Assembly (NCBI GenBank): GCA_013372975.1
Contig: JABXIS010000022.1
Span: forward strand, 1 to 63,161
Origin: Alphaproteobacteria bacterium
GTDB taxonomy: Bacteria; Pseudomonadota; Alphaproteobacteria; Sphingomonadales; Kordiimonadaceae
Reading direction: 5' to 3'
DNA length: 63,161 nt
Positions 49,451 through 59,135 of this stretch are shown in pieces. The stretch's first letter is position 1; every line of letters begins with the position of its first letter. The notes under the pieces were generated by a model, which was given only the letters and a program-made list of their open reading frames with translations, was not told the DNA's origin and searched no databases. A program made the position numbers and the translations under genes.

Positions 49451-49478
49451 AGGGCCCCGATTAGGGCCCTTTTCTTTT
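49451..49478 (+). terminator. Rho-independent terminator of the RND operon
   Basis: AGGGCCC and GGGCCCT pair around CGATTA, followed by TTTCTTTT. It ends the RND operon 23 bases after the adaptor stop. Confidence 0.85.
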
Positions 49479-50910
49479 AGCCCGTCTCGCGGCGGGACAG
49501 CGCCAGATAAACAAGGCCGGATACAAACAGCCCGACAAACCATGCATAGGCATAGATGGTATCAAAGACTGCGGGCACCGTATCAAGAACACCGGCCACA
49601 TGCAGGAACCCAGGCAGGTTGGGCACAATTCCCAGCGCCAGCGCCACAAGTCCGGCCGTGTTCCACGCGCCATATTGACCGTCGTGCCGGAACAGGGCCT
49701 CAACATCCAGATTGCCGCGCCGGAGCAGGAAATAGTCAGCCAGCAATATGCCCGCGACCGGCCCCAGAAGGGCTGAATAACCCACCAGCCAAGTGAATAA
49801 ATAATCGCCCGCACTTTCAAGCAGCTTCCAGGGGAACATGGCAATGCCCAGCCCTGCCGTTATATAGCCCCCGGTGCGGAAGTTTATGCGGCTCGGTGAA
49901 AGGTTTGAAAAACCATAGGCGGGCGCCACCACATTGGCTGCCAAATTGGTGGTCAGGGTGGCAACAACGAGCACCGCCAACGCCACAATCACCCCCACAC
50001 CCCCCATGCGCGCCGCAAGAGCCACAGGATCCCACACCGCTTCGCCATATATCACCACCGATGCACTCGTAACCGCCACCCCAATGAAAGCAAACAACGC
50101 CATCGGCAGCGGCAGCCCAATAGCCTGACCGACCATCTGATCACGCTGGCTTTTCGCAAATCGCGTGAAATCCGGGATATTGAGCGCCATGGTGGCCCAG
50201 AAACCGATCATGGCCGTCAGGCCCGCAACAAAGCTGGGCAGGAACTCGCCTTCCCGCGCGCCACCGTCCGCAAAAGCTGACGGAGCCGACAGCATTGCCC
50301 CCCAGCCGCCGGCCTCCACATAGGCCCAAGCCAAGAGCGCCAGCCCCGCCAAAATCAGGAAGGGTGCGGCCAGTGTTTCCAGCCAGCGGATCGATTCCGT
50401 TCCCCGCCCGATGAAATAGAGATGCAGTGCCCAGAAGGCGAGGAAGCTGGAGGCTTCAGACAGGTTGATACCAATGAGCGGCAAGGCTTCTCCCTCAAGG
50501 GCGCCGTTTGTGAGGCTGTTGAGAATGACATGAATGGCCGAACCACCAACCCATGTTTGAATACCAAACCAGCCACAGGCAACCAAACCGCGGGCTACAA
50601 CCGGGATGCGCGCGCCCTTGGTGCCAAAAGCAGATCGCAACAGGACCGGAAAGGGCACACCATATTGTGCCCCTGCGTGCCCCACTAAAATCATGGGCAC
50701 CAGAACAATCAGATTCCCGAGGAACACGGTGAGCACAGCCTGCCACCAGTTCATACCTTCAGACACCAGCCCGCCTGAGAGCATATAGGCTGGCACGCAG
50801 ACAACCATGGCAACCCAGAGGGCCGCAAAATGTTTATAATCCCAGGTGCGGGCAGCAGTGGGCGTGGGCGCCAGATCCTGGTTCCAGAGGTCTGCATCTG
50901 GTGTGGGCAT
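49477..50910 (-). CDS. NCS1 nucleobase:cation symporter
   Basis: 477 residues from MPTPDADLWNQDLAPT, with GGAGA about 7 bases upstream. About twelve TM helices. NCS1 landmarks are a leading NQDLAPT (the 'N-x-D-x-x-P' element), HAGAQYGVPFPVLLRSAFGTKGARIPVV, GWFGIQTWVGG in TM3, GFWATMALNIPDFTRFAKSQRDQ, and a late DYFLLRRGNLD. Members import uracil, cytosine, hydantoin or allantoin with Na+ or H+. Which substrate cannot be told. Single gene. Confidence 0.93.
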   Translation of the reverse strand: MPTPDADLWNQDLAPTPTAARTWDYKHFAALWVAMVVCVPAYMLSGGLVSEGMNWWQAVLTVFLGNLIVLVPMILVGHAGAQYGVPFPVLLRSAFGTKGARIPVVARGLVACGWFGIQTWVGGSAIHVILNSLTNGALEGEALPLIGINLSEASSFLAFWALHLYFIGRGTESIRWLETLAAPFLILAGLALLAWAYVEAGGWGAMLSAPSAFADGGAREGEFLPSFVAGLTAMIGFWATMALNIPDFTRFAKSQRDQMVGQAIGLPLPMALFAFIGVAVTSASVVIYGEAVWDPVALAARMGGVGVIVALAVLVVATLTTNLAANVVAPAYGFSNLSPSRINFRTGGYITAGLGIAMFPWKLLESAGDYLFTWLVGYSALLGPVAGILLADYFLLRRGNLDVEALFRHDGQYGAWNTAGLVALALGIVPNLPGFLHVAGVLDTVPAVFDTIYAYAWFVGLFVSGLVYLALSRRETG

Positions 50911-51085
50911 AGGCTGGGTCTCCGTTTTTCCCAGGTGGGCAATGGGGTGCAGAGACTCGAAACTGTGCAACGACAGTAGCGCAGGATCAGCCGGTCGCCA
51001 ACGGCTTGTGTTATAGCCAACAAATTTTGTGCACCAGAAATGGACGCCACGATATAAGATTTATTGAAACAACTGGGGAGAAGAT

Positions 51086-51817
51086 ATGTCCGACAGCACC
51101 CACACAATTCCGCTTGAAAGCCTGGCACTGGCCTTTGTGCCGGTGGCGATTGTGATTGCTGTTCTCCATCTGTGGTCCAGAAGCGCCAAAGAAACCGTGT
51201 ATGGTTTCGCCCGGATGGTGCTGCAGCTGTCTTTGATCGGCTATTTCCTCGTGTATCTGTTTGCCACAGAAGCACCCTGGCTGGTGTTGGCCGTGCTTTG
51301 TGTTATGGCACTTGTTTCCAGTTGGATCGCGCTGCGCACATCCCACCTGCCACGCAGAACCGCATACCCCATCGCGCTTTTGGCGATATCCTTAGGTGGC
51401 GGGTTTGTGCTTGCCATGATCACACAAGCGGTGCTGCAACCCGATCCCTGGTTCCGACCGCAGGTGATCATTCCACTTGCCGGTATGATTTTCGCCGCCG
51501 CCATGAACAGTGTCAGCCTCGCAAGCGAGCGGCTGGGCGCTGAAATGAAGCGCGGGGATGATTATCTCACCGCCCGGCCCGTGGCCCTCAGGGCAGCCCT
51601 TATCCCCATCACCAACAGCCTGTTTGCCGTGGGGCTAGTTTCCCTGCCGGGCATGATGACAGGGCAAATCCTTTCCGGTGTGTCGCCGCTAGTTGCGGCC
51701 CGGTATCAGATCATGGTGATGTGTATGATGTTCGCGGCGTCGGGCCTCTCGGCAACATTGTTCCTGCTTTTCGTGCGAAATAGCGTTGAAAAGTCAGCCG
51801 AAGCTAATCCATCATGA
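51086..51817 (+). CDS. fetB: FetB-like ABC permease (UPF0014), ATPase gene missing
   Basis: 243 residues, about seven TM helices. The UPF0014/FetB pattern is clear: FARMVLQLSLIGYFLVYLF, PRQVIIPLAGMIFAAAMNSVSLASERLGAEM-like region near 140, and LVSLPGMMTGQILSGVSPLVAARYQIMVMCMMF near 190. FetB works with the ATPase FetA (YbbL) in iron export; no ATPase lies in the window. The last 14 bases overlap the convergent LytTR regulator gene. Confidence 0.92.
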   Translation: MSDSTHTIPLESLALAFVPVAIVIAVLHLWSRSAKETVYGFARMVLQLSLIGYFLVYLFATEAPWLVLAVLCVMALVSSWIALRTSHLPRRTAYPIALLAISLGGGFVLAMITQAVLQPDPWFRPQVIIPLAGMIFAAAMNSVSLASERLGAEMKRGDDYLTARPVALRAALIPITNSLFAVGLVSLPGMMTGQILSGVSPLVAARYQIMVMCMMFAASGLSATLFLLFVRNSVEKSAEANPS

Positions 51818-52595
51818 TCTGAACAACAGCCTCCTTGTAGCCCCGGCTGAGTTTGAGCCATGCGCCCTTCTGCATTTTCAGCTCATATTCACCATGGCCC
51901 ACCGGCCGCATCTCGGAAACGCGCGTGCTGTCAATGATGGTAGATCGGTGAACGCGTATGAAGGTGCCGGGCAACCTGGTTTCAATATCCTTAAGCACCC
52001 CCCGCAAGAGATAGACACCATCGCCAGTGTGGATTTCCACATAATTGCCCGCACCCTGCAACCATTGTACTTCAGCGACCGGCACAAACTGTACTCGCCC
52101 GTGGCTTCTAACCACAAAACGATCCAGCGTTTGATCCTTCGGCTCTTCAATTTCAGGCACTTCCCTGCCCATGGTTCGCATCAGGGAAGCATAATGCTCA
52201 AAAAGCGCTGTGCTACGCTCCTGCTGAACGGCCTTGATGGCGCGAGCAAGGGCTGTCTGGAACCGTTCCTCGTCAAAAGGTTTCAGAAGATAGTCCACCG
52301 CTTCATGATCAAATGCCTTCACGGCATATTGGTCAAACGCTGTCACAAAAACGGTTGTCGGCAACTGGCTAAGGCCCAGGGCCTCAATCACCGAAAATCC
52401 ATCTTTCTCGGGCATCTGGATATCGAGGAACAGAATATCCACCTGCCCTTCCCTGCAACGCGCGATGGCTTCATCCGCGCTCCGGGCCAAAAACACGTCA
52501 CCAACCGCCCTTTCCTGCCTGAGCAGGCTTCCCAGAAACTGCCGGGCGAGCGGCTCGTCATCCACGACCAAAACATTCAGCAAGCCATCGCTCAT
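51804..52595 (-). CDS. LytTR-type response regulator
   Basis: 263 residues. The receiver domain opens NVLVVDDEPLARQFLGSLL, with phospho-acceptor Asp in DILFLDIQMPEKDGFS near residue 56, Thr in VFVTAFDQYAVKAF and Lys in DYLLKPFDEERF. The LytTR DNA-binding domain occupies about 155-263 (VRSHGRVQFVPVAEVQWLQGAGNYVEIHTG...RVHRSTIID). It overlaps the upstream kinase stop as ATGA. It likely activates an unidentified target, possibly the NTF2-like gene upstream of the kinase. Confidence 0.95.
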   Translation of the reverse strand: MSDGLLNVLVVDDEPLARQFLGSLLRQERAVGDVFLARSADEAIARCREGQVDILFLDIQMPEKDGFSVIEALGLSQLPTTVFVTAFDQYAVKAFDHEAVDYLLKPFDEERFQTALARAIKAVQQERSTALFEHYASLMRTMGREVPEIEEPKDQTLDRFVVRSHGRVQFVPVAEVQWLQGAGNYVEIHTGDGVYLLRGVLKDIETRLPGTFIRVHRSTIIDSTRVSEMRPVGHGEYELKMQKGAWLKLSRGYKEAVVQIMMD

Positions 52596-53677
52596 GCTTT
52601 GGCCTCATGGTCTGAAACCGGGGCAGGCAGGGTGATGGTCACCGCGCACCCCTTCCCCCCTTCTGGAGTTCCAATCTCCAGCGTGGCGGAAGCGCCATAC
52701 AGGGTTTGAAGGCGCTCTTTTGTATTCGCAAGGCCGACACCCGAGGTAACCGCCGAAGGCAAATAGCCGGGCCCGTCATCCATCACCTGAAGCACAAGCC
52801 GGCCCTCTTCAACGTTCCCCGTAACCGATAGCTGCCTCGCAGCAGCCCGTTTTTCGATGCCATGGCGGATGGCATTCTCCACCACAGGCTGAAGGATAAA
52901 GGGGGGCACGTCCAAATCGCCTGCATCAGCGGCCAGCCTTACATCACAAGTGAGACGGTCGCCGAAACGAACTGCTTCTATATCCAGATATTGTTCAAGC
53001 CATTCAAATTCCTGCCGAAGTGGCACAGAGCGTGTATCGCCGCTGTCAAGCACAGTCCGCAGCAAATCCGCCAGCCGCACCAACATGCGGCGCGCCCCTG
53101 CCACATCGGTAGACATCAGCGCCGAAACTGCGTGAAGCGAATTGAACAGAAAGTGCGGTTGTAATTGCATCTGCAACGCCGACAGTTTGGCCCCAGCCAA
53201 GGCCGCTTCAAGCTTGCTGCGTTCAAGATCAAGCATGAGCGCCCGCTCTTTCTCAGTTTCATATCGGGCATGATAGTCGAGGGCGTAAGAAACCCCGAGC
53301 ACGGCCCAATAGATAAGCGCAACAAGATGCAGAAACAGTACTTCGTTTGCCAATGTGGCAGCGAAAGACATGGGCCATTGATCAGCCACAGAAAAACTGA
53401 GCACGGCCGACCAACCCAGAAACAGCACCCCAAAAAGCATGCTCAGAGGTAAATGAATGAAGGCGGCCTTGCGCCAACTTCGGGCGTCATACCGACGCCC
53501 GAGCCAAACAATGAATGGCGTGGCCGGCACCCAGATCCACCAGGCACCAAACGCAATAAGCGCATTCTCAAGTGGCGTGACAGGGATATTCATGCCCCTG
53601 TAGATCAGCCACCCTTGCAAAAAGGAGATGCAGGCCGGGATCGCCCATATCAACAAAAGCAAAGGCAACTTTCTCAT
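52592..53677 (-). CDS. LytS/YehU-type sensor histidine kinase
   Basis: 361 residues from MRKLPLLLLIWAIP; a TTG 12 bases earlier with AAAGGG before it, or a GTG at 53707, are alternatives. Four TM helices (about 5-25, 40-62, 78-100, 112-130) precede a coiled region and the His_kinase domain LQPHFLFNSLHAVSALM (phospho-His in P-H-F), ending in a HATPase with IRHGIEKRAA and DGPGYLP. It partners the LytTR regulator downstream. No input domain is seen outside the membrane. Confidence 0.93.
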   Translation of the reverse strand: MRKLPLLLLIWAIPACISFLQGWLIYRGMNIPVTPLENALIAFGAWWIWVPATPFIVWLGRRYDARSWRKAAFIHLPLSMLFGVLFLGWSAVLSFSVADQWPMSFAATLANEVLFLHLVALIYWAVLGVSYALDYHARYETEKERALMLDLERSKLEAALAGAKLSALQMQLQPHFLFNSLHAVSALMSTDVAGARRMLVRLADLLRTVLDSGDTRSVPLRQEFEWLEQYLDIEAVRFGDRLTCDVRLAADAGDLDVPPFILQPVVENAIRHGIEKRAAARQLSVTGNVEEGRLVLQVMDDGPGYLPSAVTSGVGLANTKERLQTLYGASATLEIGTPEGGKGCAVTITLPAPVSDHEAKA

Positions 53678-53717
53678 CAGGCCATTCAAGACAATATCCC
53701 TTTCCACATCAGAAGCT

Positions 53718-54991: not shown

Positions 54992-56506
54992 ATGTTGCGA
55001 ACGATATTTGGGCTGCTGTGTTTGTCTGTTGTTTTGGGTTTATCAGCCCACGCACAGGCCGCTCAAACGGGCACAGTACCGCCACCAGATGCCCTAAGGG
55101 TGCTCTATTTCTCGTCTTACCCCGAAATCGTTCAAGATGAAGGAAAGCCGGGCCTTGCGGAACTGGCAACCGCAATCGCAGACCAGCAGGCAAACCACGA
55201 TGATGTCTATTTTATCTTTGGTGGCGCGTCTCTCGGCCCGTCCCTTCTGGGAGCGCTGGACAATGGCGCTCATATGATCGACATACTCAATGGTCTGGGC
55301 CCAGAGTTTGTCGCCGTGATGAAACGCGAGTTTTCCTATGGCCTTGATCAATTGATCATCAATGCCTACGCCAGCGCTTTCCCTATGGTAACATCCAATC
55401 TGCTAATGGCTGAAAGCGGCGACCCTATAGACGGCCTGGAATCATCCTTTTTGCTGGAGGGCCAAAACCTGACAATCGGGTTCGTCACCCTCACATCAGC
55501 TAACGCAATCAACGAATATGGCGCTTTGGAAACCCAAATTCTGGACACTGCCCAGACCGTCACAGAAACCGCGTCAAGCCTGAGGGATGCCGGAGCACAT
55601 GCTGTCTTCATCATGGCTGACACAGACTATGATGACCTTAGCCTGTACCGAGAACAGGGCGTTGTTGATGGCATTTTTTATACCCATAACTTCGGGAACC
55701 CCCAGGCGCTGGACGCTCAAGGCATATTGATCAAAGAGGGTCCTTTAGACGGCTTGATCCTTGTTTTGGATATCTGGCATGATGACAATGGCGTCCTCCG
55801 GACAAAAGCGTCAACATTGCCGCTGGCCAAGCATAGCCCTGATCCTGCCATTGCCAGCGTCGTCAATACCTATCAGGAACGGCTTCAGGAACGATTAAGC
55901 CCCCCAATCGCGCAACTTGAATCGTCGTTCAATACCCTGCGCGCCAATGTGCGGACGGGGGAAAATGCGTTCGGTAACTTCGTAGCTGATGCAGTTCGAG
56001 ATCATCTGGATGTGGATGCCTTCCTGCTAAATAGCGGTGCAATTCGGGGTAATCGCCAATATCAAAAAGGTACATCCATTAACCGAGGGGACATTCAGCG
56101 CGAGCTACCCTTTGGGAACCGAACTGCTGTGGTAAGCCTGTCAGGTGCAATGCTGCGGCAAACGATTGAGTATGGTCTGAACTGTGCTGCGATGGCCGAT
56201 GGTTGCGCATTACAGGTATCAAACATCCAGATTCGTTTCGACAGTGGGGCAGACAATGGCGCCAGGGTAAAGGAAATCTTGATAGGCGGCAGACCGCTGG
56301 AAGAAGATCAGATTTATGTTGTCGGCATGTCTGATTTTATGGCACGAGGAAATGATGGATATGACTGGTTAAAGGGGGCCGAGCGGGTTCCTCACAGGGG
56401 CGCTGGCCGCGTCTTGTGGGACCTGATTGCAGAATACTGTGGCCGCAGGGGGATCATAACCCCAACGATAGATGGCCGCATAACAGACATTCGTAAGGCC
56501 AACTAA
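54992..56506 (+). CDS. Exported 5'-nucleotidase family protein, metal site lost
   Basis: About 504 residues from MLRTIFGLLCLSVVLGL (a TTG 6 bases earlier has a better-spaced AAGGG). It is a UshA-type two-domain protein. In the metallophosphatase half the ligands are mostly replaced: the D-x-H motif is SSYPE, G-G-D is GGAS, N-H-E-F-D is KREFS, the T-H motif is ADTDY; only one His (THNFG near 233) is left. The C-terminal substrate domain stays intact (FGNFVADAVRD, LNSGAIRGN, LPFGNRTAVVSLSGAMLRQTIEYG, NDGYDWL). It is 4 bases upstream of a hybrid sensor kinase. Probably a binding protein, not an enzyme. Confidence 0.85.
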   Translation: MLRTIFGLLCLSVVLGLSAHAQAAQTGTVPPPDALRVLYFSSYPEIVQDEGKPGLAELATAIADQQANHDDVYFIFGGASLGPSLLGALDNGAHMIDILNGLGPEFVAVMKREFSYGLDQLIINAYASAFPMVTSNLLMAESGDPIDGLESSFLLEGQNLTIGFVTLTSANAINEYGALETQILDTAQTVTETASSLRDAGAHAVFIMADTDYDDLSLYREQGVVDGIFYTHNFGNPQALDAQGILIKEGPLDGLILVLDIWHDDNGVLRTKASTLPLAKHSPDPAIASVVNTYQERLQERLSPPIAQLESSFNTLRANVRTGENAFGNFVADAVRDHLDVDAFLLNSGAIRGNRQYQKGTSINRGDIQRELPFGNRTAVVSLSGAMLRQTIEYGLNCAAMADGCALQVSNIQIRFDSGADNGARVKEILIGGRPLEEDQIYVVGMSDFMARGNDGYDWLKGAERVPHRGAGRVLWDLIAEYCGRRGIITPTIDGRITDIRKAN

Positions 56507-56510
56507 TTAG

Positions 56511-59135
56511 ATGCCATCCAGTTTGGAAAATGTCAGGCGTGTGGGGAAGACGCTAGGTTTCAGGGTGAAGGGGATTGTCCTTTTGCTATTGGGGCTTCTC
56601 ATTCTGATCTTCTCATTCTCCTATGCATCTCTCAGACAGTCCACCGATCAGGTGAACAGGCTGGCCGAGGGGGCATTGCCCTCTCTTGCCGCCACAATGG
56701 AGCTTTCCCTTCATCTGGAAGGCGTTATTCAAAGCTCTGAACGACTGATGAATGCCAGCATTCAGGCCGAACGGCGGGTAGCCTATGAGCAAACACGTGA
56801 AGCCCTGGCAGCCGGCTCAAGCTTCCTTGCAGCAAACAGTACTTTCGCCTCAAGTCGTGAAATGGAAGAGATTTTTGCAACTCTTTCCACAGCCACAGAC
56901 GATCTGAACACATTGATCGACGAAAAAATGCGGCTTGCCTCGGATCTGGACGCACATCGCCTGAAATTATCGCAATGGTTTGGTGGCCTTAAACAAAGTG
57001 GCGTATCCAACACCGAATATGCCCTTTGGCTGGGCAACGTCGGGCAGATGCTTGGCCAAATGGCGATCCTGACACCCGACATGAACGCCCGCCTCATGCG
57101 AAGGGAGATTTCCAGGATTGGCAGAACCCTGAGAACTCTCGAACAAAATGCTCAATCACTTTCTCCCGCAGCCAGGTCTCTTGCCGCGGAAACAGTCGAT
57201 AACCTGCAAGATCTAATATCAGGCGATATGGGTATATTTGCTATCCTCAACGACTATAGCCGCCACAATCTTCGCGCAAAGGCACTGACCCGTCAGATGC
57301 GTGTAATCACAAGCGAAATGCTGCGTGACCTGAATGCAATTACCAAAGGTGAAATCACCGAAACCCAGGCGTCGGCCCATAGCTTGGTTCAACGCTCGGA
57401 AAGCCAACTGACGGCATTGATTTTAGTTGTAGTTGCAGCGATGACACTTGCTGTTCTTGCTTTTATCTATGTCGACCAACGGGTCATCCAGCGCCTTGGT
57501 CGGCTGCAGCGCAGCGTTAAAGATCGTGCTGATGGCCATGAAGCCGTCATTCCCGTAACAGGGGATGACGAAATCACGGAAATATCGAAGGCCGTACAAT
57601 ATTTTGTCGACGAAATTGATCGCAGGCAACAATCGCTGATCCAGAGTGCGGAACAAGTCCGAGATATCATTCTCCAATCCCCGCAGCCTATGTGTGTTGC
57701 AGCGGAAGGTATCATCCTGTTCCACAATGCCGCCTTTGAGAACCTGTGGACGGGTGATATCGAGCTTTCAGATGTTCCTGCCTATTTACCATCAGACCTA
57801 TTGGCCTCGGGCGATGATACGAGGCAAATGTCCCGCCACGAGATCTGGATGATGGGTCATGAGCCACGCTGGTTCGACATGGCCTCCAGCCCGGCAAACT
57901 GGGAAGGGGTTCACGCCCGCCAGTTGATCCTGGTGGATGTCAGTAGCCAAGTGAAAGTGGAAAAAACACTTAAGGGCGCAAAGGAAAAAGCAGAAGCCGC
58001 AGCACAAGCTAAATCCTCGTTCCTTGCCATGATGAGCCATGAAATTCGCTCGCCCATGAACGGCATTATTTCTGTCGCGGAAATCCTTTCAAAGGAAAAC
58101 ATGGGCCAAGAGCAGCAGCGACTTCTCAGTGTGATAAATCAATCCGCGGAAACACTGCTGACCATCATTAACGACATTCTTGACTTCTCAAAAATTGAAG
58201 CTGGCAAATTAGCCATCGAAAACCTTCCTTTCAACCTGCCTGACCTGGTCAGAAGTGCCGCTGAGCTCCTTGCCGGGGATTTCAAGCAGAAGTCAATCAC
58301 CTTCGAAATCGATATTGATCAAAATCTGCCAGATGAAGTGATGGGGGATGCCAACAGGCTGCGACAAATCCTGTTTAATCTGATCAGCAATGCCGCAAAA
58401 TTCACGGCAGACGGAAGTGTCCGCGTTTCAGCCAAAAAGTCAGGTGACAAGGTCCAAATCTCTGTTGAAGACACAGGAATCGGCATCAGCCCGGATATGC
58501 TTGAACGGCTGTTCCAACCTTTTGAACAGGCAGACACATCGACAGCGCGTCAATTTGGGGGCACTGGGCTGGGACTAAGCATTTGCAAACAGCTGGCCTC
58601 CTTGATGGGCGGAAACCTCGGCGTAACAAGTACTGTCGGGAAAGGGTCTGTATTTACAGTGACACTGCCGCTCAACCCCGCAGGCGTAAATCTCAAAGCC
58701 AAAACTGATATAGCGCTCCAATCGAAAAAACGCGCACATCAGCCTGCTGCACCTTCGGCCAAGCGCCACATTCTGGTTGTAGAGGACAATCCGATAAACC
58801 AGGTGGTTATTACCAAGATTCTGTCTCAACTTTCCTGCAGTTATGACGTCGCTGGCGATGGCATCGAAGCTCTGGGTCAGTTAGAAAACAATCGCTACGA
58901 TCTGATTTTGACAGACCTGCGCATGCCCAACATGGATGGATTTGCAATGGCACGTACCATACGCGAAAGGGAACAAGAAGAAGGCGAACGACTGCCCATA
59001 GTAGCGGTATCGGCCGATGCTATGGAGGAAGCACGCCAGGAAAGCCAAAAATCCGGCATAGATGACTTTATCTCAAAGCCGATCAAAATAGACGAAGTGC
59101 GCGCCTGCCTTGAAACGCACCTACCCGCCACCTAA
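56511..59135 (+). CDS. Hybrid sensor histidine kinase, TorS-like layout
   Basis: 874 residues: TM1 (about 20-42), a 260-residue helical periplasmic sensor, TM2 (about 303-326), HAMP (330-380), PAS (about 385-470), HisKA with SHEIRSPMNG (His about 510), HATPase (GDANRLRQILFNLISNAAKF; DTGIGI; GGTGLGLSI), and a C-terminal receiver (HILVVEDNPIN; phospho-Asp in DLILTDLRMPN near 802; Lys in FISKPIK). No HPt domain follows and no response regulator gene is adjacent, so the next relay partner is elsewhere. The long all-helical sensor recalls TorS, which reads a periplasmic binding protein. Confidence 0.95.
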   Translation: MPSSLENVRRVGKTLGFRVKGIVLLLLGLLILIFSFSYASLRQSTDQVNRLAEGALPSLAATMELSLHLEGVIQSSERLMNASIQAERRVAYEQTREALAAGSSFLAANSTFASSREMEEIFATLSTATDDLNTLIDEKMRLASDLDAHRLKLSQWFGGLKQSGVSNTEYALWLGNVGQMLGQMAILTPDMNARLMRREISRIGRTLRTLEQNAQSLSPAARSLAAETVDNLQDLISGDMGIFAILNDYSRHNLRAKALTRQMRVITSEMLRDLNAITKGEITETQASAHSLVQRSESQLTALILVVVAAMTLAVLAFIYVDQRVIQRLGRLQRSVKDRADGHEAVIPVTGDDEITEISKAVQYFVDEIDRRQQSLIQSAEQVRDIILQSPQPMCVAAEGIILFHNAAFENLWTGDIELSDVPAYLPSDLLASGDDTRQMSRHEIWMMGHEPRWFDMASSPANWEGVHARQLILVDVSSQVKVEKTLKGAKEKAEAAAQAKSSFLAMMSHEIRSPMNGIISVAEILSKENMGQEQQRLLSVINQSAETLLTIINDILDFSKIEAGKLAIENLPFNLPDLVRSAAELLAGDFKQKSITFEIDIDQNLPDEVMGDANRLRQILFNLISNAAKFTADGSVRVSAKKSGDKVQISVEDTGIGISPDMLERLFQPFEQADTSTARQFGGTGLGLSICKQLASLMGGNLGVTSTVGKGSVFTVTLPLNPAGVNLKAKTDIALQSKKRAHQPAAPSAKRHILVVEDNPINQVVITKILSQLSCSYDVAGDGIEALGQLENNRYDLILTDLRMPNMDGFAMARTIREREQEEGERLPIVAVSADAMEEARQESQKSGIDDFISKPIKIDEVRACLETHLPAT

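Follow-up and report, generated by a model that had tools for sequence, protein, structure and literature searches.

The TorT-TorS system of Escherichia coli and Vibrio, a receptor for trimethylamine N-oxide (TMAO), combines an exported binding protein with a hybrid histidine kinase encoded beside it (torT adjoins torS in E. coli MG1655), and TorS contains a histidine phosphotransfer (HPt) domain. Contact between TorT and TorS occurs in cells, according to an excerpt of PMC3795677. In the polyamine receptor NspS-MbaA of Vibrio cholerae, a periplasmic binding protein controls a membrane enzyme of cyclic di-GMP (c-di-GMP) metabolism, as described in an excerpt of PMC8967002. The locus considered here lies on contig JABXIS010000022.1 (assembly GCA_013372975.1) of an alphaproteobacterium of the family Kordiimonadaceae; the window denotes the whole stretch of 63,161 nucleotides that was analyzed. 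At positions 54992..59135, a gene for an exported UshA/CD73-like pseudo-5'-nucleotidase directly precedes a gene for a hybrid histidine kinase, and this pair is probably a periplasmic nucleotide receptor with its transducer that works like TorT-TorS, the binding protein being a former 5'-nucleotidase. As in TorT-TorS, the gene for an exported, putatively ligand-binding protein stands beside that for a hybrid kinase, and the modeled periplasmic sensor of the kinase is helical and of the same fold as that of TorS (3i9y, 3o1h, 3o1i). Unlike TorT, the putative binding protein is a two-domain relative of metallophosphoesterases rather than a TorT-like periplasmic binding protein; unlike TorS, the kinase shows no HPt domain, and the ligand is presumably a nucleotide. 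The 5'-nucleotidases UshA, CD73 and E. coli c4898 have the fold and the C-terminal pocket in common with the window protein, whereas the latter is devoid of the dimetal and catalytic residues and its gene is coupled to that of a signaling protein. The novelty would lie in a receptor of the TorT-TorS kind with a binding subunit of different origin; among the titles listed from the open PMC literature, no published account of such a pair was found.

The nucleotidase-like open reading frame (ORF; 504 residues, 54992..56506, + strand), recognized by its translation, Pfam, alignment with UshA and structure match, begins with ATG at 54992 and ends with TAA at 56504-56506. The ATG of the kinase is at 56511, so that the coordinates bear out the 4-base gap between the two genes reported in a first-pass annotation of this DNA. 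Nine positions of E. coli UshA (L051; NC_000913) were compared that we take, H117 apart, to be its metal-binding and catalytic residues. In the window protein, the former D-x-H metal motif reads SSYPE (55112..55126, +), with S42 and P44 at the sites of D41 and H43; the former GGD motif reads GGAS (55220..55231, +), with A79 at the site of D84; and the former NHEFD motif reads KREFS (55322..55336, +), with N116 replaced by K111, the catalytic H117 by R112 and D120 by S115. Furthermore, H217 corresponds to D210 (55619..55621, +; second alignment) and Q254 to phenylalanine, so that H252, retained as H232 (55685..55687, +), is the only one of the nine residues that is preserved. An intact set of ligands at shifted positions was found in neither of two alignments, and Pfam yielded no match to the Metallophos domain at E<=0.1. 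The alignment with UshA thus gives the same list of replaced motifs, with one histidine kept, that the first-pass annotation had given, and the shift in register that would have restored the ligands did not appear. Judged from its sequence, the protein does not belong among the active 5'-nucleotidases, given that the dimetal site by which these are defined is lacking.

The same condition is characteristic of all 102 proteins that are encoded upstream of a related sensor (hereafter, linked proteins). This set includes the window protein and comprises 18 pairs from Kordiimonadaceae, 57 from the Azospirillum family and 27 from a family of another class (f190). Among the six residues D41, D84, N116, H117, H217 and H252, none is kept in 27 linked proteins, one in 74 and two in a single protein. 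The site of H117, whose role in UshA-type enzymes is given in an excerpt of PMC7922932, is occupied by arginine in 97 proteins, lysine in three and leucine in two, so that the histidine itself is gone in all cases; at the neighboring N116 site, 59 of the 102 have lysine. The ligands that are still encountered are N116 (40/102), D41 (16/102), H252 (13/102) and D84 (7/102). These scattered survivors, along with an arginine or lysine at the H117 site that could bind phosphate, would suit an enzyme that works by a different chemistry, without a requirement for two metals, and whose reaction is coupled to signaling by the operon; with at most two of the six ligands in any protein and the catalytic histidine universally absent, this explanation appears very improbable.

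The C-terminal part of the protein shows the opposite pattern of conservation. Pfam sees only the substrate-binding domain 5_nucleotid_C (PF02872, 5.5e-30; residues 308-461, 55913..56374, +). In CD73, the base of adenosine monophosphate (AMP) is stacked by Phe417 and Phe500, the ribose is bound by Asn390 and Asp506, and the phosphate by Arg354 and Arg395, as listed in an excerpt of PMC8677862. Counted along a pairwise alignment with CD73, the window equivalents of these contacts (F374, F449, N347, D455, R321 and R352, within 55952..56356, +) are identical at all six positions, in agreement with the earlier claim that the entire substrate-binding domain has been kept. Taken with the loss of the metal site, and as far as the excerpted contacts go, the identical pocket suggests that the protein has lost the function of its hydrolytic half and preserved its binding half. 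Across the linked proteins, F or Y occupies each of the two stacking positions in 102/102, and R379, R410 and D504 are likewise present in 102/102; all six contacts from the CD73 excerpt, with F or Y allowed at the stacking sites, are found in 101. The separability of binding and catalysis in the UshA/CpdB family is evident from an excerpt of PMC7922932, according to which the substrate of UshA binds the specificity site of the open enzyme and is then carried to the metals by a large hinge rotation, and the His117Ala replacement in CpdB has little effect on inhibition by adenosine. The structure model of the window nucleotidase has its best Protein Data Bank (PDB) matches in 3ive/3ivd, with bound cytidine or uridine, followed by CD73; the best 50 matches to this model (mean predicted local distance difference test, pLDDT, 62.6) are all 5'-nucleotidases plus SoxB and include no TorT or solute-binding protein fold.

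The degree of conservation bears on whether the pocket is used at all. In 40 thinned rows of linked proteins, pocket residues R321, N347, R352 and D455 rank within the top 4-7% of columns and the stacking sites at 16-17%, compared with 41-57% for six of the eight former active-site positions, 27% for the N116 site and 12% for the H117 site, which is mostly arginine. A ligand-free accessory subunit that stabilizes or tunes the sensor, with a pocket conserved merely for folding, would account for the new forms of the motifs (SS-PE, GGAS, KREFS) that are conserved within lineages and could constitute a docking surface; this alternative seems unlikely considering that the pocket belongs to the most conserved 4-17% of columns, far ahead of most former active-site positions.

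The sensor domain of the kinase (56640..57401, +; limits approximate, membrane helices placed by eye) was assigned using AlphaFold, Foldseek and hhalign. The model of kinase residues 18-372, built from three sequences, is all-helical with pLDDT 85, and its three best PDB matches, 3i9y, 3o1h and 3o1i, all represent the TorS sensor domain, in two cases in complex with TorT; for 3i9y, Foldseek gives E 9.3e-5, TMt 0.75 and TMq 0.51. Compared with E. coli TorS and four TorS-like kinases from Alphaproteobacteria, the sensor profile matches over the entire domain (E 1.5e-31), and the periplasmic part alone, with the membrane segments and HAMP removed, still matches TorS-like sensors with hhalign probability 97.6 (E 2.7e-12), against 0.1 in two reversed controls. 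The TorS-like layout with a long helical periplasmic sensor that had been proposed for this locus is thus upheld both by the fold match and by the comparison of the periplasmic parts. A search of PDB for homologs of the sensor by sequence alone produced six matches, all with E>=0.37, which were judged to be coiled-coil noise. The family PF21689 (TorS_sensor_domain) is not among the seven families that match the window sensor at E<=5; it is above the cut-off in the related sensors L162, L163 and L256 and just below it in L166 and in the linked GGDEF partner L288. Beside related sensors outside the linked group, a nucleotidase was found in none of 20 loci. The upstream genes of ten of these 20 were tested, picked by position and N-terminus, and nine of the ten encoded proteins match solute-binding families, in two cases with scores slightly below the curated cut-off, which suggests that the pseudo-nucleotidase occupies the position of TorT.

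The association of the two genes is conserved across large evolutionary distances. Among 29 Kordiimonadaceae genomes, including that of the window, 20 have some nucleotidase match at 1e-5 and 18 a strong ortholog, for example, a Kordiimonadaceae metagenome-assembled genome (L002) and Kordiimonas laminariae (L003). In all 17 strong orthologs other than the window's own, the next same-strand ORF is a kinase related to that of the window, the distances as called lying between an overlap of 44 bases and a gap of 38; one partner (L034, 7967-10614, +) is split in that assembly by a stop between the kinase and receiver parts. For the pairs of the Azospirillum family and f190, many ORF starts are simply the first possible start codon, so that some partners seem to overlap; the gap was therefore measured from the sensor match, and the nucleotidase stop lies 40-308 bases before its first residue in 102/102 pairs. 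Sensor profile A3 matches exactly the 18 ortholog-bearing genomes and none of the 11 others (Fisher p 2.9e-8, uncorrected for kinship); since this profile was made from 17 of those 18 sensors and L087, only the absence of the sensor from the 11 genomes is informative. Nucleotidase profile A1 matches 93 of 385 alphaproteobacterial genomes at 1e-10 and 45 places below 1e-80, the window's included; among 60 regions fetched around strong and weaker matches, a sensor-profile ORF is present only in L087, from the Azospirillum family. Of the 82 genomes of that family, 44 contain the sensor at 1e-25, at 61 places in total; 58 of these places are strong (E <= 6.3e-58), with a nucleotidase upstream in 57 of the 57 that can be assessed and one (L232) at a contig edge; named plasmid records in Azospirillum carry the same type of pair. 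A phylum-wide search of 398 genomes added three pairs, all in f190, where the sensor is present in 27 of 147 genomes at 1e-20 and is preceded by a nucleotidase in 27/27. An exported binding-protein-like gene thus accompanies the TorS-fold sensor in every assessable strong case. The conservation of the pair in relatives, beyond chance, on which the first-pass annotation had made its proposal depend, is accordingly borne out by the co-occurrence search, and the distribution is wider than could be foreseen at that stage, extending to two classes of the phylum and to a second kind of output.

The f190 partners are GGDEF proteins in all 27 cases, as indicated by Pfam in 8/8 tested and by a GGEEF motif in 24/24 of those inspected for it; these pairs (L257-L259, L278-L301) represent a candidate nucleotide-to-c-di-GMP receptor in 27 genomes. 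NspS-MbaA, as described in the excerpt of PMC8967002, may by analogy serve as their precedent, with the difference that NspS binds polyamines and MbaA contains both GGDEF and EAL domains, whereas here the binding protein is a pseudo-nucleotidase. An HPt domain is present in partners L044, L239, L252 and L253. The loss of the metal sites could also be read as the sign of a decaying pseudogene that lies next to the kinase by chance, but the frames are open, dN/dS (the ratio of nonsynonymous to synonymous substitution rates) is 0.04-0.18 in seven close nucleotidase pairs (with dS saturated in three), and the pairing holds in 102 loci, while the other flanking genes differ among the 18 Kordiimonadaceae loci. 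Pseudogene and chance neighbor were both rejected on dN/dS and pair conservation, leaving this alternative a negligible chance of being correct.

The closest sequence relatives detected are 41 alphaproteobacterial nucleotidases of this subfamily that are not linked to a sensor (L082-L123, except L087), and these, in contrast to the linked proteins, mostly keep the ligands: six in 31 proteins, five in seven, and three, two and one in one protein each, that is, at least five of six in 38/41. No ORF near these 41 matches the sensor profile in the fetched regions, of which five (L092, L097, L099, L117 and L122) show less than 1000 bases downstream. The count leaves out L124, which has no N-terminus, the second of the tandem copies in L110, and the outer group L125-L141. 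In trees built with the ligand columns excluded, near-identical rows thinned and L124 omitted, the linked proteins form one clade (Shimodaira-Hasegawa-like approximate likelihood ratio, SH-aLRT, 97 with 94 rows and 100 with 103 rows, the latter tree also lacking 14 long or outer rows, L123 among them), and this clade is nested among metal-keeping enzymes. The nearest rows in the 94-row tree are the degenerate, long-branch L123 and the intact L089. One genome has a degenerate copy (L110:7016-8635, -) in tandem with a copy that keeps six of six ligands (L110:5400-6953, -), and a third copy, again degenerate, is located elsewhere (L112:5470-7101, -); none of the three has a sensor partner in view, and these copies possibly represent another path from enzyme to binding protein. 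The genome of the window encodes one further, unlinked 5_nucleotid_C protein (L260, G000:C53:4529-4981, in a frame of 624 residues).

Several observations weigh against the interpretation of the pair as a TorT-TorS-like nucleotide receptor. The single origin of the linked clade implies that the 102 cases are not independent; they probably go back to a single ancient event that selection has maintained, not to 102 separate ones. The degenerate unlinked relatives L110, L112 and L123 have no such partner in view, so that proteins outside such pairs have also lost ligands, and the position of L123 beside the linked clade indicates that some of this loss could precede the pairing. Three weaker Azospirillum-family sensor matches break the association, L254 and L256 being without a nucleotidase and L255 having only a 277-residue piece about 700 bases upstream. 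On the sensor side, E. coli TorS alone gives no hhalign signal with the sensor profile (probability 1.1), and PF21689 is absent from the families listed for the 18 A3 sensors (25 of 49, E<=5). The nucleotidase model is weak overall and weakest in the N-terminal domain. Finally, the site of N431, which we take to be an adenine contact of UshA, is aspartate in 51 of 74 linked proteins, so that the ligand may differ from AMP. This change speaks for a receptor and transducer of the same design that respond to another ligand, such as a nucleotide-sugar, an NAD- or FAD-like dinucleotide, a cyclic nucleotide or an aromatic compound unrelated to these; the substrates of UshA-type enzymes include many nucleotide derivatives (excerpt of PMC8475336) and CD73 also binds caffeine and riboflavin (excerpt of PMC8677862). 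The invariance of both phosphate-binding arginines and the ribose-binding aspartate in 102/102 linked proteins favors a ribonucleotide, and a different ligand is accordingly possible without being the better supposition.

For the receptor of extracellular nucleotides, the following mechanism can be outlined. The former nucleotidase, which would be cognate to its partner, would hold its ligand, more likely a 5'-nucleotide than a nucleoside, in the C-terminal pocket without hydrolyzing it. That the ligand carries a phosphate is suggested by the two arginines of the phosphate site, which never vary, and this phosphate could be held by R112 and K111, located where the metals were once bound. The two domains would close around the ligand by the hinge motion of the active enzymes, and closure may alter docking on the TorS-like helical periplasmic domain and thereby set the output of the partner, the direction of the signal being conjectural. 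In the window, the output would be a His-Asp phosphorelay via HisKA and REC, with HPt needed from elsewhere; in other lineages, it would be an HPt-containing kinase or a GGDEF protein (diguanylate cyclase). The loss of catalytic residues, the retention of the pocket, the constant pairing and the TorS-like sensor, all read from sequences and predicted structures, are consistent with this scheme.

Bacteria both release nucleotides and encounter them, the sources being cell lysis, attack by phages, plant roots and organic phosphorus in the sea, and dedicated bacterial receptors for extracellular nucleotides are, to our knowledge, hardly known, no systematic search for them having been made. The pair is a concrete candidate for such a receptor and is present in cultured organisms including Azospirillum brasilense. 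With slightly better than even confidence, it can be seen as an example of a widespread, undescribed input module for extracellular nucleotides in which a hydrolase once turned receptor, phosphate-holding cationic residues replaced the dimetal centre, and a TorS-like sensor became connected to varied outputs, namely hybrid kinases in Kordiimonadaceae and Azospirillum and diguanylate cyclases in the family of another class. A single tree that carries apparently active enzymes, dead receptors and outputs of several kinds would trace a possible route from enzyme to receptor. Such pairs are hidden by present annotation: in Azospirillum ramasamyi, one such nucleotidase is labeled '5'-nucleotidase C-terminal domain-containing protein' and carries a nucleotide-catabolism term, and its partner is labeled 'ATP-binding protein'.

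The two window proteins have the following further features. A signal peptide, judged by eye from the translation, covers approximately residues 1-24 of the nucleotidase-like protein (54992..55063, +), with a hydrophobic core followed by AQA. The kinase (874 residues, 56511..59135, +; ORF translation and Pfam) has the domain order HAMP-weak PAS-HisKA-HATPase-REC according to Pfam, with HAMP at 57480..57617 (+), slightly below the Pfam cut-off of 25 bits, the HisKA phosphoacceptor domain at 58008..58205 (+), HATPase_c at 58344..58676 (+) and the receiver domain, with phosphoacceptor D802 by position, at 58770..59108 (+; Pfam and kinase alignment). The kinase appears to be intact: across 17 aligned kinases (A2), a set that includes that of the window and omits the split L034 kinase, there is no variation at H510, N623, N627, several of the G-box glycines, D802 or K856. 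Pfam finds no HPt domain in it, so that the HisKA-HATPase-REC-HPt chain of TorS-type kinases is incomplete, and the gene 3' of the kinase encodes a DUF502 protein on the opposite strand; both points agree with the earlier description of a kinase that has neither an HPt domain nor a cognate regulator next to it.

With respect to the samples, the frames obtained for L022, L024, L026, L030 and L031 in the first alignment were too short or wrong, L021 was included in that alignment and dropped thereafter, profile A1 was built without L035, the fragments L126 and L127 are absent from the second alignment, and L255 and L260 were left out of one comparison step.

Other genes in the window and around the related pairs deserve brief mention. 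The opposite strand encodes a cytosine/purine/uracil permease (PF02133, 8.5e-114; 49477-50970, -) at a distance of approximately 4 kb upstream from the pair; a nucleobase uptake gene so near a possible nucleotide receptor is suggestive, and the 17 regions from other Kordiimonadaceae have no ORF that matches this permease. A LytS-type histidine kinase and a LytTR response regulator (51804-53707, -), which separate the permease from the pair, look like an independent two-component system. Conserved neighbors were discarded as a clue to a regulon: among the 25 clusters of neighboring genes listed, one is shared between lineages (one Kordiimonadaceae and five Azospirillum-family loci) and no other; genes for flagellar-hook, metallophosphoesterase and ATP-grasp proteins recur only among the Azospirillum-family loci. 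In Azospirillum ramasamyi, a metallophosphoesterase gene (L267:5190-6023, +) lies just upstream of the pair, and a cluster of this kind is represented in 15 Azospirillum-family loci. In the second Azospirillum-type copy (L243:966-2198, -, and similar loci), the kinase is followed by a REC-HisKA-HATPase protein that may be the next step of the relay and belongs to a cluster spanning ten loci.

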